From Opitutales bacterium (GTDB lineage Bacteria > Verrucomicrobiota > Verrucomicrobiia > Opitutales > Oceanipulchritudinaceae): 64,000 nt of DNA. The translations under genes and the position numbers were made by a program. The stretch spans positions 1 through 64,000 of the forward strand of contig SLNJ01000024.1 of assembly GCA_007133065.1 (NCBI GenBank), written 5' to 3'. Positions 1,884-39,994 of this stretch are shown here, one piece after another. The notes beneath the pieces are model-generated. The model made no database searches, was not told the origin of the DNA, and was given only the letters and a program-made list of their open reading frames with translations. Numbering within the stretch: the stretch's first letter is position 1; the number at the start of each line of letters is the position of its first letter.

Positions 1884-2837
1884 TCATGGGAGGCGGCGGC
1901 CGAGTGATGCATTCAGCAACCGCCACCAGGCATCGGAGTCCATCGCCGCTTCGGTTGCCGGGACGCACTGCCGCACGCGATCGGCTTTCATCGTGCCGAT
2001 GACCGGGACGATACCGGCCGGATGGCGTAGAATCCATGCGAGGGCTACGCCTTCGGGGGAGAATCCGGTTTCCGCTGCGACTTCAGCCACCGCGTTCCGA
2101 ACGGATTTCGTCCGTTCATCGTCCGACTCGGAAGGTTTTGAGAGCAACCCTCCCGCTACCGGCGACCACGCTTGCAGCTGAATCCCTTCCCGGTGACAGA
2201 AATCGACGACCCCTTCCGCACCGGTGAAGACGCGCTCGGTGCGGTTGACAAAGAGACCTTCCGAGATCGACCACGGGTGGATCAAGCTCAGCTGAATCTG
2301 GTTGGCCACCAGCGGCGTATCGCAGGCTGACTGCAAGAGCTGGATCTGGGCGACGCTGAAGTTGCTGACTCCGAAATAACGCACCTTGCCCGCTCGGCGC
2401 AAGCGGTCAAACGTCGTTGCGACGGTTCCCGGGTGGAGCAGAGGATCCGGGCGGTGGATCAGCAGCACATCGAGGCAGTCGACCCCGAGGCGTTGCAGGA
2501 TGGCGTCGACGGACGCGTCAATGTAATCCGCCGACTGGTCATAGCGATGCAGGTCACCGATGCGGATCCCGCACTTCGACTGGAGGACGATTTTTTCCCG
2601 CCAATCCGGATGCCGCTTCAGCACCTCCCCGAAAACCGCCTCGCAGTTTCCGCGTCCATAGATGTCGGCGTGGTCGAACAGGTTGATTCCGCACTCGAGG
2701 CAGGTCTCCACCATCTCCTCCGCATGTCGGATCCGTTCGGGATCTTTCGGGTCGTCCCGTGCTCCCATGAAGCGCATCGCTCCAAAAGCTAAGGGTGAGA
2801 CCTCAAGGTCGGTGTGCTTCCAGGTGATCTTTTTCAT
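1884..2837 (-). CDS. Aldo/keto reductase (YdhF-like)
   Basis: This 317-residue protein belongs to the NADPH-dependent aldo/keto reductase superfamily, a soluble TIM barrel that reduces carbonyl groups. The complete catalytic tetrad is visible: D55 and Y60 in FDHADIY, K88 in QSKCG, and H128 in LLIHRPDP. The N-terminal LAFGAMRFMG and the later GKVRYFGVSNF segment are typical family signatures, and the length is normal. The family resemblance is to the YdhF branch with a long ADIYGRGNCE loop. Its stop is 185 bases from aroG and its start is 36 bases from the stop of the glycoside hydrolase gene on the same strand. It may therefore be co-transcribed with that hydrolase and act on a sugar carbonyl, but this is only context. 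Confidence 0.92.
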   Translation of the reverse strand: MKKITWKHTDLEVSPLAFGAMRFMGARDDPKDPERIRHAEEMVETCLECGINLFDHADIYGRGNCEAVFGEVLKRHPDWREKIVLQSKCGIRIGDLHRYDQSADYIDASVDAILQRLGVDCLDVLLIHRPDPLLHPGTVATTFDRLRRAGKVRYFGVSNFSVAQIQLLQSACDTPLVANQIQLSLIHPWSISEGLFVNRTERVFTGAEGVVDFCHREGIQLQAWSPVAGGLLSKPSESDDERTKSVRNAVAEVAAETGFSPEGVALAWILRHPAGIVPVIGTMKADRVRQCVPATEAAMDSDAWWRLLNASLGRRLP

Positions 2838-2873
2838 AATGTGTTTTGTCGTTTCCGTACTCCAGTCGCGCTC

Positions 2874-33985: not shown

Positions 33986-34097
33986 TCTCGTGCGCCGGCG
34001 AAACGGCGTTTCACGCGCCCGCACGGAATTAACCGCATTGGGTTGACTCAGCTGCATTACTTTGCCAATGAGGGCTCTTTTCCCGCAATCGCAGAAT

Positions 34098-34805
34098 ATG
34101 AGCAATCAGCCTGAACAATCCCAGCCCCCGAAACCGGACAAGCGTCTCTTCGCCAAGCGCAGTGAGCGGGAGGAGCTCCCCCCGGACGCCGACCTCGAGG
34201 ATCGTTTCAATGACTTTTGGAAGCGCAATGGGCCGGCCATTTTCCTGGCGATCGCCGTGATTGCGATTGTTGTGACAGGGTATCAGACGATCGAGTATTT
34301 CGGGGAGCGCCGAGAGGCGGCGGTGCGCAGCGAGTTCGGCGAGGTAATGGGCGATCCGGCAGCGCTCGTGAGTTTCGCCCAGGAGCACGAGGGCCGATCG
34401 ATTGGCGGTATGGCTTACCTGATGTTGGCGAACGACGAATACGCGCAGGCACGATATCGCGCAGCCGCGGACCACTATCATAAGGCGGCGGAGGCGTTGG
34501 TTGAGACCCCCATCGTGGGGCGGGCTCGACTCGGTGCAGCGATGTCCCTGATGAAGCTCGGTCAATTCGCCGAGGGCGAGGCGATCCTGCAGGACCTCGC
34601 CGGCAACCAGGCGATACCGGGGGTGGTCCGAGCCGAAGCGGCTTACAACCTCGGCGTGGCGTATTGGGAACGGGAGAACTACGAGGCGTTGTCCGAACAG
34701 CTGGATTTCATCGAGGATATGGAAGAGAGCGGGTATTGGGGGTTCCGGGCGATGCAGCTGCGCGAGCGGATCCCACAGCTGCGCGAATTCGCATCCGGGG
34801 CGTAG
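34098..34805 (+). CDS. Membrane-anchored TPR protein, YfgM-like
   Basis: A 235-residue protein with a charged cytoplasmic N-terminus (residues 1-45, rich in Pro, Glu, Lys and Arg), one transmembrane helix at about 46-63 (PAIFLAIAVIAIVVTGY) and a periplasmic tetratricopeptide-like domain (YRAAADHYHKAAEAL; GRARLGAAMSLMKLGQ; VRAEAAYNLGVAYWEREN). This topology matches YfgM/ancillary SecYEG proteins, which bind exported clients near the translocon; that role is inferred. The start ATG 34098 is preferred over an upstream in-frame codon because the longer N-terminus has no support. It ends 46 bases from the converging ExbB gene. Confidence 0.8.
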   Translation: MSNQPEQSQPPKPDKRLFAKRSEREELPPDADLEDRFNDFWKRNGPAIFLAIAVIAIVVTGYQTIEYFGERREAAVRSEFGEVMGDPAALVSFAQEHEGRSIGGMAYLMLANDEYAQARYRAAADHYHKAAEALVETPIVGRARLGAAMSLMKLGQFAEGEAILQDLAGNQAIPGVVRAEAAYNLGVAYWERENYEALSEQLDFIEDMEESGYWGFRAMQLRERIPQLREFASGA

Positions 34806-34851: not shown

Positions 34852-35625
34852 TCAGGCTCCCCCTGTCCCGTCCTCCGGCTTCTGATTTCCGACCAGTGCA
34901 TCGATGAGGCAACCCGCCTCCCGGCTCGTCCGTTGCATTATTCCGGCGAGTCGATTTCGGAGGACGAAATAGGCGATCATCGCCGGGATTCCTATGACGA
35001 GCCCGGTTGCGGTGGTAATGAGGGCCTGTCCGATGTCGCCGGCGAGGAGTTCGGGCCGTCCCATCCCGCCCCGTGCAATGGTCTGGAATGCGCCGATCAT
35101 ACCGCTAACCGTGCCGAGGAGGCCGATCATCGGCGAAACCGTTGCGATGACGTTGAGGTAGTTGATCCACTGGGCGATGCCGGATTCTTCCGCTTCCGCG
35201 GCTTCGACAAAATCCGATTCCACCTGATCCTTGTTGGCATCGGGGGTGTCGATCCGCGCTTTGGAGAGGGACGCGCGGAGGCAGCGGGCGAGGACGGTAT
35301 CGCTCGTTGCCAGGCGGCGTTGAACGCTGTCGAGATCGCGGGCCACGAGGCGGCGCTTCAGATCGACGAGGAGCCCTGCGGGGATGAACCGCTCCTGCCT
35401 GGTTTGTGACAGGCTGAAGAATATCAGGAAGAACAGCGCGAGGCAGCAGCCCCCGAGCGGCCACATTGCCCAACCGCCGCCTTTTAGAAGACCCCACAGG
35501 CTTTGTCCGGAGTCGGCGAGCTCCTCTGTGTTGTCCGCGTAGAGGGCAAGCGCGCAGCCGCAGAGGATTATGGCGGTTAGAGCGAGGGATCGAAAAAGGA
35601 TGTCGTCTGGTGCGGAGCGGTTCAC
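34852..35625 (-). CDS. MotA/TolQ/ExbB proton-channel family protein
   Basis: A 257-residue inner-membrane protein of the ExbB/TolQ family. Predicted helices lie at about 12-30, 48-74, 157-187 and 198-224. The region NVIATVSPMIGLLGTVSGMIGAF, followed by AGDIGQALITTATGLVIGIPAM, is the family's proton-channel signature. Family members use proton flow with ExbD/TolR partners to energise outer-membrane transport or other envelope processes. Start is GTG 35623-35625, which overlaps the upstream stop codon (GTGA), so it is translationally coupled to the TPR gene. No ExbD, TolR or TonB follows; the opposite-strand YfgM-like gene begins 46 bases away. Confidence 0.9.
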   Translation of the reverse strand: MNRSAPDDILFRSLALTAIILCGCALALYADNTEELADSGQSLWGLLKGGGWAMWPLGGCCLALFFLIFFSLSQTRQERFIPAGLLVDLKRRLVARDLDSVQRRLATSDTVLARCLRASLSKARIDTPDANKDQVESDFVEAAEAEESGIAQWINYLNVIATVSPMIGLLGTVSGMIGAFQTIARGGMGRPELLAGDIGQALITTATGLVIGIPAMIAYFVLRNRLAGIMQRTSREAGCLIDALVGNQKPEDGTGGA

Positions 35626-36605
35626 GGGTGGTCCTTGGTGTCTTTGCGATTATCTTGATCGCCGAACGCATGAACTGCGTCCGGGAGGGGAAATTCTGCG
35701 GAGGGCCATTTCAGGCGGCGATCGCGCATTTCGCCGAACAGGAGTCGGGCATGATTGGAGTCATTCAGGGCGAGCGCGGCGTGCACGGCGATCGCGTAAC
35801 AGAGTTCAAGGTCGTCCACTGGCAACTGGGAGGAGAAGACGATCGGGTGCAGGGCGTGATCGAGGGCTGTTTCGTAATCTTGGTTTTGCAGCGCAGTGGC
35901 GGCGATGATCCACCAGCCGAGGGCGCTCCTGCGGTAGGGCCCGGCCGAGCGGATCCACGCTTCGGCCTGCGTGCGTGCGGCTTCGTCCCACCCAAGACGG
36001 AAATAACCGAGCAGCAGCGCAGCTTCGAGCGGATCGCGGCTTTGCTCCGGGAGGTGCGGGAGCAAGTGCTTGGCCACCGCAACGGCTTCGACGGATCGCC
36101 CCTGCTGCAGGCGCCCGTCAACCAGCGCGGCAAAAGCCAGAACCTCCTTCTCCCGAAGGTATGGGAGGTAGGGGAGGCGGTGGTAGTAGAGCGTCTCGAG
36201 GATCACGAGCGCTTCCGCGCGTCTTCCCTCGCCCATGAGGTCGCGCGCGAGGTCGATGTGCCGGGCTCCGGGAAGCTCGACGCGCAGGATTTCGCCGGCG
36301 CCGAGCGTGTACTCCACCCTCCCTGCTTCCACCGCGAGGATGATCGAACGATCGGTGACACTGCGCGGTGTCCCTGTGAATACCCGGCCGTCCGTCAGCC
36401 AGACGGTGATCGGCTCGGCGAGCGTATCGACGAGAGCATTCGGAGCAGCGCCGACGGCGGCAGCGGGAACATGGGCGCCGCCGAGCAGCGCGATCATCAA
36501 TGGCAGCAACGGACGCCATCCGCGGCACGAGCGATCCCCCGGTCCGCTGCCGGCGGAACGTGACGCAGTGCTGCGAAACTCCGTTGTTCTGTGATGATGA
36601 CTCAT
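35622..36605 (-). CDS. Exported TPR-containing protein of unknown function
   Basis: A 327-residue protein with a long basic N-region and hydrophobic core (PLLPLMIALLGGAHVPAAA), suggesting export. The mature part begins with a small beta-rich segment (ITVWLTDGRVFTGTPRSVTD, RVEYTLGAGEILRVELP) of the type that follows signal peptides in some planctomycete and verrucomicrobial proteins. Helix-turn-helix repeats of TPR-like spacing follow (AEALVILETLYYHR, AALLLGYFRLGWDEAARTQA, GWWIIAATALQNQDYETALDHAL). ATGA overlaps at both ends link it to its neighbours, so it is certainly part of the TPR-TPR-ExbB operon. No family name can be given. Confidence 0.8.
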   Translation of the reverse strand: MSHHHRTTEFRSTASRSAGSGPGDRSCRGWRPLLPLMIALLGGAHVPAAAVGAAPNALVDTLAEPITVWLTDGRVFTGTPRSVTDRSIILAVEAGRVEYTLGAGEILRVELPGARHIDLARDLMGEGRRAEALVILETLYYHRLPYLPYLREKEVLAFAALVDGRLQQGRSVEAVAVAKHLLPHLPEQSRDPLEAALLLGYFRLGWDEAARTQAEAWIRSAGPYRRSALGWWIIAATALQNQDYETALDHALHPIVFSSQLPVDDLELCYAIAVHAALALNDSNHARLLFGEMRDRRLKWPSAEFPLPDAVHAFGDQDNRKDTKDHP

Positions 36606-39499
36606 CCGTGTTCATTGTCCCCGTCCGAGGATATCGGGGAATCGACGGTTGCGTCGCGCGGGAGCAACACCTCAAGGCGACGCATTTCCCGCTTTGCCTC
36701 TTCGTGCAGGCTCGGATCGTCTGTTTCGTTCATGAACCGTAATTCGCGCCAGGTGTTGTAAGCGGCCTGGAGGTCGCCGGTCGCTTCGAACATCGCGGCA
36801 CTGCGTCGGTAGGCATCGGCGGTCAGGTCCGGGAATGCCCGGTACATGTTGTAGATCCGCTGGTAGTAGGGGATTGCTCGCTTCGGTTCCTCCCGGGCCT
36901 CCGCGATGCGCGCGAGCCCCTGAAGCGCTTCGGCTTGGGGGCGTCCGCGCGCCTGGCGCAGTCGCAGCAGTGCCTCGAACTGCTCCCGGGCGGCATCATA
37001 AGCGCCGAGAGCCGTGAGCACACGACCGTGCGCGAGCATTGATTCGGGCCCAAGCGGATGCATCGGCAGTTCGCTGATGATGCGGTGAAAAAGATGCCGC
37101 GCCGACTGCCATTCACCCCGGTCCTCGGCCAGGCGGCCGAGGTAGTGCAGGGCGTGCGCGCGGTCGGGGGAGTCGGGAAAGCTCTCCAGAAGTCGGTGCA
37201 GGTATCGTTCTGCCTCTGCGGCTTCTCCGCGCAGATAGAAAAACGCCCCCATACGCCCGAGTGCGAACGCGTCGAGCCGGTCCACAGGAACGAGGTCCGC
37301 GATCTCGCGAAGATAGCCCTTGCCCTCGTCGTGCGTCCCATCGCGGGGTTGGGTTTTGCCGAGACGGAGGCTCAGGCGGGCAAACCAGGTGAACTGGGAG
37401 TTTCGAAGCGCGTCAGCGCGGGCGGTCTCCAGCCAGGACTCAAATTCTGTGATCCCGCCGAGCGTGGCACCGAGTTCAGGGTTGCGCTGCACTTGATATT
37501 CCAGCGCGTCGAGGATGGCGTCGATTTCGGTGGCGGCGGGATCGTTTCCGTATCGGTCGAGCGCCGAAAGAAACAGTGGAACCGCTTCGGAGACCCGCCC
37601 CTGCTGCTGTCGGGCCCAGCCGATCCAGTAGAGTGCTTCGCTCACACGCGGGCGCTTTAGAAGATCGTCCCGCTCGAGATACGATTGAAAATGATGTACC
37701 ATCAGGTCGTACTCCTCGAGCGCCCGGTAGATCTTTCCCGACTGGAAGATCGCGTAGACGAACAGGGCCGAGTGTTCCGGCGGGACGCGTCGAAAGTCCG
37801 AGGCCGCCTCGATGTGGCGGCCCTGGCCCATCAGGATGTCCCCCCGCAAGACCCGACCCTCGGGTTCCCTGGCGTGGCCGGGAAATCGCTGCAGAAATCC
37901 ATCGATCTCCCGCAGAGCTTCGTCGTAGTCGCGCATGGCGTAGCGTGTTGCCGCCACGCGATAGTGGATTTCGGGCTCAAGCCGGTGCTGAGCGGGGAGG
38001 GTTCCACGGAGCGCGTGGAACTCCTGCAGCGCGCGGTCGTAGGATTGCTCGAGAAACCACGCCATGGCATGCCAAAAGCGCGCCGGATCGACGAGGTTGC
38101 TCCCGTTGGCGTTCCGGTCCGCTGCAATGCGCGCGAAATGACGGCGCGCATCCGCCTGCGCCTCCTGTTCGAGCGCGACAAATCCCAGGGTGAAAAGCCA
38201 GCGCTCCGCCTGCCCGTGATCGGGGTATTCCTCGAGCAGTTCCCGCAGGATAGCCGCCGCCGATTCCAGGTCGCGTTGCTCGCGATACGTGCGGGCGAGC
38301 AGAAACAGGGTCTGGGGAACGCGTTCGGAGTCGGAGTATTCGCGCAGGTAGGCGCGGCCGATGGCGAGGGCGTCGTCCCATCGTTCCATCGATATGGCCG
38401 CGACGATCCACCGGTAGTGAGCCTCCCTCCTGTCGCGCTCCGCGAGTGTCGTGTCGCCCGCAAGATACCGTAGAATCTGAATGGCTTCGCGCGGGCGCCC
38501 GGCGAGGAGGAAGGCATGGCCGCGCCGCAGTTGGAAGCCCGGGGTGTAGTCCTCGGATCCCCGCAATCCTTCGAGGGTGGATTCAATGCGACCGGTGATG
38601 CGCAGGAAGTAGTTCTCCCAGATGGACGCACTCGAGGGAGTCAGGTGTGCTCGATAGCGTGCATAATGGGTGCGAACGGCGTGGAGCCGTTCCTCCTGGC
38701 GCTCGATCAGCTCGTTGCGGGGAGGGACGAGCCGGTAGGCGCGCAGCGCCGCGATGGGGCGCTCCGAGGCCAGGAAGCGGTCCCCGATGCGCAGCGCTGC
38801 GAACGCAAGCACTCCGAGCTCCGGCATTGTGCGCAGGCTCCAATCGGTTCCGAATAGCAGCGCTGCCGAGGACTCCCACTCCTTCGCATCGGTCAGCGCC
38901 CGAATCGCTCGCAGGCGGGCCTGAGTGCGAAGACTGGGCGGGTGGCCTCCCGCGTAGAAGGCGTTGAGCAACGATACTCCCGATTCGAGATCTCCGGTTT
39001 CGAGTCGCAGCTCCGCCTGTCGCAAAAGCGCCAGCGCCGCGCCCGGTTCGGCCGGGTGTTGTTCGGCGAAACGTCCGAATGCGTCAATCGCGGCATCATA
39101 CTCCCCGGCCGCTTCGAGCGCCTGCGCAAGCGCATAGCGAACAAAAACGCGGTCCGCTGAGGACATCTCGACGATCTGCAGGGCCTCCCGAAACAGCGCG
39201 ACCGCGCGCTGCGGATCTCCACTGAGCAGGTGGGCATAGCCGTTGAGCGGCAACAGCATCCGTTGCGTCCGTGGTGCACGAAACTCCGGTTCCCGCCCGA
39301 ATGTTGCCTCCAGCTGATGAAATAGCCGGGCAGCCTCTTCGTAGCGATCCGCCTGAAACGCTTCCACCGCTTGTTGCATCAAGCCTCGCATGGTCTGCCC
39401 AACCTGGCCGGCCAGGCTCGTTGACCCCAGGAGGGTGAAGAGCGCCAAAAGCAGGCCAAAGAAGCTGCTCCGCCACCGGTGCCGGAATTGTGCGCGCAT
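36602..39499 (-). CDS. Large exported tetratricopeptide-repeat protein
   Basis: A 965-residue protein with a clear signal peptide (RRSSFFGLLLALFTLLGS-type core within residues 1-31) and about twenty TPR-like helical pairs along the whole chain, for example QAVEAFQADRYEEAARLFHQL, VRYALAQALEAAGEYDAAIDAF and PDRAHALHYLGRLAEDRGEW. No catalytic domain is visible. It resembles periplasmic scaffolds such as the TPR partners found next to ExbB/ExbD in other Verrucomicrobia and Bacteroidetes. Start ATG 39497-39499 is chosen because the open frame upstream has no signal peptide. It heads a three-gene coupled operon and is divergent from rpsL across 495 bases. Confidence 0.88.
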   Translation of the reverse strand: MRAQFRHRWRSSFFGLLLALFTLLGSTSLAGQVGQTMRGLMQQAVEAFQADRYEEAARLFHQLEATFGREPEFRAPRTQRMLLPLNGYAHLLSGDPQRAVALFREALQIVEMSSADRVFVRYALAQALEAAGEYDAAIDAFGRFAEQHPAEPGAALALLRQAELRLETGDLESGVSLLNAFYAGGHPPSLRTQARLRAIRALTDAKEWESSAALLFGTDWSLRTMPELGVLAFAALRIGDRFLASERPIAALRAYRLVPPRNELIERQEERLHAVRTHYARYRAHLTPSSASIWENYFLRITGRIESTLEGLRGSEDYTPGFQLRRGHAFLLAGRPREAIQILRYLAGDTTLAERDRREAHYRWIVAAISMERWDDALAIGRAYLREYSDSERVPQTLFLLARTYREQRDLESAAAILRELLEEYPDHGQAERWLFTLGFVALEQEAQADARRHFARIAADRNANGSNLVDPARFWHAMAWFLEQSYDRALQEFHALRGTLPAQHRLEPEIHYRVAATRYAMRDYDEALREIDGFLQRFPGHAREPEGRVLRGDILMGQGRHIEAASDFRRVPPEHSALFVYAIFQSGKIYRALEEYDLMVHHFQSYLERDDLLKRPRVSEALYWIGWARQQQGRVSEAVPLFLSALDRYGNDPAATEIDAILDALEYQVQRNPELGATLGGITEFESWLETARADALRNSQFTWFARLSLRLGKTQPRDGTHDEGKGYLREIADLVPVDRLDAFALGRMGAFFYLRGEAAEAERYLHRLLESFPDSPDRAHALHYLGRLAEDRGEWQSARHLFHRIISELPMHPLGPESMLAHGRVLTALGAYDAAREQFEALLRLRQARGRPQAEALQGLARIAEAREEPKRAIPYYQRIYNMYRAFPDLTADAYRRSAAMFEATGDLQAAYNTWRELRFMNETDDPSLHEEAKREMRRLEVLLPRDATVDSPISSDGDNEHG

Positions 39500-39994
39500 C
39501 GATATCCGGAGCGTTTCCGGAACCGGCGAGTTGGCAAGAAGAAAATGACAATAATATGTAAAATAATCAACATTACCCTGTCGCGATCGGGCGATCGGCA
39601 CGGCGCGCGCAGCCTTCAATAGGTCGTTGCGGAGCTGCAATCACGATTCGCCCCGGTCTTTCAGCTGTTTGCCAGGCCAATATCAGCCCATCGCTCGCTC
39701 CTTTTTCTCCCGATGTATTGCGGTTTCAAATGGTCAACCTATTCCAGGACGGGAGACCCGCATCTGGAAATCCCGCCATTCCTGAAAAATCCCGATGTTT
39801 TCTCTTGCGTGGCAGGCATTCAATCTGTTGAGTCATAGCTTCTCATCGGTGCTACATGGCTCGGATCCGGAGGGTCCGGGCTGTATCTCCTCAGACCTTT
39901 CCAGGAAGATTTGAAGAAATCCGGAGAATCTTCTTGATTCGGGAAGGGAGTGGATTATTTTTGCGCCTTTTCCCGAATTCTATCCGCAACGTCT
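39500..39994. other. 495-base divergent intergenic region before the ribosomal supercluster
   Basis: This long spacer should hold promoters for the TPR operon (minus) and the str/S10/spc/alpha supercluster (plus). An AT-rich block at about 39538-39580 (minus strand TTGATTATTTTACATATTATTG) could carry the TPR promoter; the plus-strand candidate is annotated separately. I see no coding frame, tRNA or T-tailed terminator. A longer RNA leader before rpsL is possible but not demonstrable by eye. Confidence 0.5.
39934..39961 (+). promoter_or_regulatory. Candidate sigma-70 promoter for rpsL operon
   Basis: TTGATT at 39934-39939 and TATTTT at 39956-39961 are separated by 16 bases. The -10 end lies 33 bases before the rpsL ATG, a plausible distance. 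It is the best match to a housekeeping promoter in the 495-base spacer, judged by eye only. Confidence 0.4.

Follow-up and report, generated by a model that had tools for sequence, protein, structure and literature searches.

The subject of this work is a set of three overlapping genes in a 64,000-nucleotide stretch of DNA (the window; positions 1 to 64,000 of contig SLNJ01000024.1, assembly GCA_007133065.1) from an Opitutales bacterium. The genes encode two exported proteins, T1 and T2, and an ExbB/TolQ-like subunit. This trio very probably represents the scaffold-and-stator part of a force-transducer motor of the von Willebrand factor A (vWA) type, driven by the proton motive force (PMF), the genes of which are, in this lineage, spread over three unlinked loci. 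The assignment is based on the gene layout, the co-occurrence of the parts, their phylogenetic affiliation, complete operons in relatives, the domain architecture and the difference between Ser-x3-His and Ala-x3-Gln at the docking site of the arm. What is new is the three-locus split, found in the window genome (G000) and most relatives having the system, and an arm without the canonical docking residues. In the open-licence literature, we found no report of a split form or of a Gln variant of the SHLS motif of TonB and TolA.

The trio genes

The genes are joined by an ATGA junction (T1/T2) and a GTGA junction (T2/ExbB). The original prediction of a 965-residue tetratricopeptide repeat (TPR) protein, a 327-residue protein and an ExbB subunit tied together by these overlaps was confirmed in coordinates and junctions. 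The length of T1 is counted from the ATG; an alternative TTG start at 39640 would give 1012 residues. Both exported proteins had been described as TPR proteins, which holds for T1, matched by many TPR models of Pfam; a Pfam scan of T2 gave no TPR match, and its TPR-like helices are seen by model and Foldseek only. The AlphaFold model of T2 (mean predicted local distance difference test score, pLDDT, 83.8) has a five-stranded SH3-like barrel at residues 66–110, followed by a helical part that resembles TPR proteins such as MamA and BamD with modest Foldseek E values of about 1e-3. Signal-like N termini were read by eye on T1, T2 and ExbB.

The window ExbB scores 96.3 bits against PF01618 (cut-off 22.9), and the alignment places the threonine of transmembrane helix 2 (TM2) and both threonines of TM3, which belong to the pore, among its kept residues. 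It misses the NCBIfam equivalog cut-offs widely, with 69.8 of 221 bits for TolQ and 56.8 of 206.2 bits for ExbB. Residue 200 is Gln where a Glu is usual in TM3; among 33 scattered ExbBs, this position is E in 27 and Q in 5, with one gap. A promoter and terminator scan at the trio gave no promoter-like site, and the terminator-like matches were near the shuffled mean.

The gene order, the conservation of which had been proposed as a check, is kept in relatives. T2 is present in 22 of 72 genomes (own genome counted), T1 precedes it in all 21 loci outside the own genome and ExbB comes next in 20, the remaining locus running off its contig. The 4-base T1/T2 overlap is found again in 12 of the 21. 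The own family also includes five genomes (G005, G006, G011, G014 and G016) whose ExbB is further diverged but falls in the same clade; T1 was found adjoining it in four. In a class-wide survey of 141 genomes, 23 of them within the order, no ExbB from outside the order reached 47% identity; the best (41%) is from G198, where a single run holds ExbB, two ExbDs and the beginning of a vWA gene.

An orphan ExbD pair on another contig

Neither exbD nor tonB lies directly beside the trio, where the next gene is convergent. An assembly artefact was considered as the cause of the missing ExbD and rejected: the trio sits inside a 77-kb contig with genes on both sides, and six near-closed genomes (G036, G227, G230, G329, G426 and G470) hold the three pieces 0.3–3.2 Mb apart on one contig. 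A search of G000 (94% complete, 162 contigs) found 8 ExbB and 8 ExbD matches, with ExbB/ExbD numbers of 2/1 on C95 and C8; 1/1 on C12, C120 and C111; 1/0 on C53, which holds the window; 0/2 on C131; and 0/1 on C1. The window ExbB is the only ExbB of the genome without an ExbD close by. The earlier description of the system as lacking ExbD is thus correct for the immediate neighbourhood and incorrect for the genome as a whole.

The two C131 proteins score 93.9 and 75.2 bits against PF02472, and both keep the helix Asp of ExbD. Phylogeny, co-occurrence and complete operons in relatives give good support to this pair as the best candidate partner of the window ExbB, and a distant ExbD, raised in the original prediction as one option, is strongly supported by the ExbB-less pair at C131:1977-2838. 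As the local ExbB lacks an ExbD, but an orphan pair exists on C131 and operons exist in relatives, the layout would be one way of arranging the genes of a known motor type rather than a machine without ExbD. C1 carries a lone ExbD (G000:C1:8613-9017; L226) of a type seen with the two-ExbB systems of C8 and C95; a large DUF3418 helicase gene lies upstream of it, and no ExbB is nearby.

The vWA arm at a third locus

A profile of protein X, the last gene of the L050 operon described below, has one match in G000, at C119:88405-89346, unlinked to the trio and to the C131 pair. The model of the C119 protein shows a helix at residues 20–44, a low-confidence linker and an end domain with pLDDT of about 97, which matches vWA domains in Foldseek (best E value 1.3e-8). 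Pfam and NCBIfam gave no match for this protein, and the vWA assignment rests on the model and on homology. The sequence of the helix contains no Asp. The protein is probably the TonB/TolA-like arm of the motor; TonB is absent beside the trio, as had been noted, and this TonB-like protein with a vWA end sits alone on C119. At another locus (L258, 6763-8811; G063:C57), two tandem vWA transducer genes lie behind one ExbB-ExbD-ExbD set.

Complete operons in relatives

Locus L050, on a contig of an uncultured Verrucomicrobia, carries T1-T2-ExbB-ExbD1-ExbD2-X in one run, where X combines a single N-terminal helix with a vWA-like end. The T1 proteins of L050 and the window share 27% identity over about 930 residues, and the L050 ExbD2 and ExbD1 are 49% and 34% identical to those of the C131 pair. 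BLASTP shows no significant similarity between the T2 proteins of L050 and the window, which correspond by position and architecture alone. A second, more distant system with this layout is present in seven genomes (G018, G024, G036, G038, G043, G063 and G064), in which the place of T2 is not always recognisable by sequence, and in part also in Planctomycetota.

The clade of the window has an operon of its own, T1-T2-ExbB-vWA-ExbD1-ExbD2, in G167, G306, G333, G368 and G404 (family f11); its order differs from that of L050 in that vWA precedes the ExbDs. G313 and G412 show the same order until the contig ends inside vWA, and in G412 the remainder of vWA and both ExbDs are on another contig. G348 has T1-T2-ExbB-vWA together and the ExbDs elsewhere. 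The vWA frame is intact in G306, G333, G368 and G404. In G167, vWA and T1 are both broken, and sequencing error and decay are indistinguishable as the cause. An exbD downstream in close relatives, which the original prediction would have taken as a sign of local loss, is thus found in a minority, five of the 68 genomes with both genes.

Phylogeny and co-occurrence

The ExbB tree left out 17 of 68 rows: six duplicates of G genomes (L041, L045, L051-L054), six Helicobacteraceae, three with open reading frames extending into neighbouring frames (L032, L034 and L039) and the truncated L179 and L190. The ExbD tree omits the Helicobacteraceae rows. Before the relatives with the own-clade operon were included, ExbB rows without (33) and with (18) a local ExbD split on one branch with support of 93/97. 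In that tree, the window ExbB groups with operon ExbBs. The reading of the scattered ExbBs as one clade predates these relatives; when they are included, in a tree of T1, T2 and ExbB, the seven genomes and G348 group together within the clade. A topology uniting the 32 scattered rows is weakly rejected (approximately unbiased test, p 0.034, under a simple LG+G4 model, with a group partly named afterwards and an unresolved backbone). The evidence leans towards an own-clade operon that was rejoined rather than ancestral. In the ExbD tree, a quick tree of 148 columns with partial support, the orphan ExbD1 and ExbD2 group with their respective counterparts from vWA operons; the remaining six ExbDs of G000 fall outside these clades. 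In the vWA tree, 22 scattered arms form one group with support of 86/100.

Co-occurrence was counted with strict thresholds in 372 genomes of the order. The ExbB clade is present in 76, ExbD2 in 74 and vWA in 81; ExbB and ExbD2 occur together in 68, and all three in 62. Fisher's test for ExbB with ExbD2 gives p = 8e-58, a value that is overstated since the genomes are related. In the 72-genome set, trio and orphan-type pair are both missing from genomes whose family members have them: G002, G007, G008, G010, G012 and G015 (f1), G045 (f4), G020 (f5), G026 (f11) and G062 (f8, with an ExbB remnant only). This joint absence in several families suggests that trio and pair were lost together repeatedly.

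The docking site of the arm

The available text of PMC10666116 and PMC8928145 describes the SHLS motif of TonB and TolA; TolA H22A and TonB H20A abolish colicin activity, and TonB S16 and H20 share one helix face. The ExbB–TonB contact sites in the available part of PMC9008036 leave this picture unchanged. We compared the site across 42 vWA arms. Scattered-clade arms have Gln at the position of the His and Ala four residues before it (22/22 each), and the C119 arm itself has this Ala and Gln and is missing the SHLS His. All 13 motor-linked arms of the L050-type six-gene layout carry the His, and 11 of them have Ser four residues earlier. Arms of family f17 have Gln (3/3) at a separate place on the vWA tree, and four detached extra arm copies retain His. 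Read by eye, four further scattered arms have Gln, as do seven of the eight operon arms of the own clade, the eighth (G348) having Met. At L251, L252 and L253 (G007, G010 and G002, which lack trio and pair), vWA homologues have neither His nor Gln at this site.

As Gln is kept in the own-clade operons, the loss of His does not depend on scattering, and the Gln-type arm is encoded inside motor operons. The data do not support a single event behind both the scattering and the replacement of His by Gln, given detached copies with His and own-clade operons with Gln. On the vWA tree, Gln versus His requires at least two changes, the second case being f17 (G032, G051 and G065), in which ExbB lies with the ExbDs and vWA is found elsewhere. 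An independent-pairs test of scattering against Gln had too few pairs. Four ExbB columns separate scattered from linked systems (114, 158, 211 and 212), none in the first helix. Compensating ExbB sites were not found among them, as the Gln-bearing f17 agrees with the linked systems in three of these columns.

Proposed motor and alternatives

In the proposed motor, ExbB would form a pentameric channel in the inner membrane, with a dimer of one ExbD1 and one ExbD2 from C131 in its pore. The C119 arm (N-terminal helix, linker and vWA domain) would dock on the rim of ExbB and transmit force, and the exported TPR proteins T1 and T2 would serve as a periplasmic scaffold of the arm. We infer assembly into one complex, proton flow and force transfer from the parts described above.

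Several observations weigh against such a motor. The C119 arm lacks the docking Ser and His of TonB and TolA, and coupling to the motor could be lost. Five genomes, G023, G047 (f8), G211, G222 (f24) and G245 (f11), have the pair and vWA with no full ExbB match; G003, listed with them, has a partial ExbB match. The G047 trio is a deletion remnant, with T1 (at about profile position 712) joined to ExbB (at about position 100), T2 gone and T1 broken. At threshold, vWA was found without ExbB and ExbD2 in G002, G007, G010, G217, G388 and G043, that of G043 being operon-linked in its other system, and vWA was not found in 6 of the 68 genomes with ExbB and ExbD2 at the strict thresholds. The decay in G047 has taken place in situ (L209, 7412-9773); its ExbD pair, 31 kb away, and its vWA gene are intact.

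The window ExbB might partner another ExbD of G000, either the lone one on C1 or one belonging to a TonB- or Tol-type system, with the C131 pair serving something else. The genome would allow this, as it has seven ExbBs and six ExbDs besides the window ExbB and the C131 pair, and the C1 ExbD is likewise without an ExbB nearby. However, the tree places all six outside the vWA-operon ExbD clades, a C131-type pair accompanies the trio in 68 of 76 genomes, and trio and pair share one operon in five relatives, which makes this explanation very unlikely. A machine free of ExbD, with ExbB driven by, or driving, the TPR proteins only, would agree with 41 of 42 rows having no ExbD in the stretch fetched beside ExbB. 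We regard it as extremely improbable, as the pore threonines are kept in the window ExbB and a dedicated ExbD pair exists, both in trans and in operon form.

It is unlikely, too, that trio and C131 pair make up a motor without an arm and that the Gln-type vWA protein has been released to act alone. In its favour are the replacement of the docking Ser and His in all 22 scattered arms and the vWA homologues of G002, G007 and G010, which lack trio and pair; the helices of these homologues, read by eye, carry neither His nor Gln at the site. Yet in the own-clade operons the Gln-type vWA gene is flanked by ExbB and ExbD1, and vWA is also present in 62 of the 68 genomes with ExbB and ExbD2. We consider the three-locus vWA motor the best explanation. 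Its boldest form, in which a PMF-driven transducer operates throughout the clade without the Ser-His docking pair regarded as essential in TonB and TolA, the arm binding ExbB via an Ala-x3-Gln face and the loci possibly having been rejoined into an operon of new order in one sub-lineage, has in our judgement about an even chance of being correct.

An ExbB without a neighbouring ExbD need not be partnerless, and with candidate partners named the function becomes testable. The natural absence of the docking His across a clade, even in operons, offers a test of whether proton-driven force transfer requires this His or whether it is only one way to dock. The available text of a survey of MotAB homologues (PMC12505986) infers B subunits from the neighbourhood of the A subunit; a survey that takes the B subunit from the gene beside A in this way would miss the split system of this lineage.

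Features and neighbouring gene

The features are collected in Table 1. The convergent TPR_21-type gene is also found downstream of ExbB in the loci of seven relatives, with 27.7–39.9% identity.

Table 1. Positions of the trio, its neighbour and the orphan ExbD pair (window positions unless a contig is named)
Feature	Position	Strand	Evidence
T1, exported TPR protein of 965 residues, putative motor scaffold in the periplasm	36602..39499	-	Open reading frame, overlaps, TPR models
T2, 327-residue exported protein, SH3-like barrel and TPR-like helices	35622..36605	-	Open reading frame, AlphaFold model, Foldseek, 22-homologue alignment
ExbB/TolQ-like proton-channel subunit, 257 residues, GTG start overlapping T2 stop	34852..35625	-	PF01618, kept Thr
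Neighbouring convergent gene of TPR_21 type, outside the system	34062..34805	+	PF09976
Orphan ExbD tandem pair (ExbD1-ExbD2), no ExbB in the 14 kb fetched	C131:1977-2387, 2389-2838		PF02472

Comparison with known systems

The window system shares with TonB-ExbB-ExbD and TolA-TolQ-TolR the channel and pore-subunit families, an arm with a single N-terminal helix, the pore Thr and the ExbD Asp. It differs in having two different ExbDs, TPR partners and a vWA end domain, which replaces the C-terminal domain of TonB and TolA. The ExbB and ExbD genes of an isolate listed for alginate uptake in the available text of PMC13274419 have no bearing on it.

The closest comparison is with the inner-membrane-tethered vWA proteins proposed as force transducers in the Planctomycetes–Verrucomicrobia–Chlamydiae (PVC) group (Williams-Jones et al. 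2025, PMC12204202), for 'many' of which the available text states an SHLS motif with His in the helix. The TPR-scaffold-based envelope machine suggested originally would fit that proposal, which includes a TPR gene. Its second vWA family (TPH-vWA), a vWA pair with TolQ and no TolR, likewise combines vWA proteins with a TolQ-like gene without a TolR neighbour; unlike that family, in which the available text has an Asp-bearing vWA helix as pore subunit, G000 has an ExbD pair, a single vWA gene and a helix without Asp. With the main systems of that paper, as far as its available text describes them, the window system has in common a TPR gene, a TolQ-like gene, a dissimilar TolR-like pair and a helix-linker-vWA transducer. 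It differs in that its genes lie at three loci instead of one, with only the TPR genes adjoining ExbB, and the gene adjacency of those systems, absent from G000, is present in five relatives. It further adds the SH3-like/TPR protein T2, which their description in the available text does not mention; the docking Ser and His are replaced by Ala and Gln; and the own-clade operons place vWA before the ExbDs. Judged by its predicted content, the window system belongs to the vWA force-transducer kind; it does not by layout or motif.

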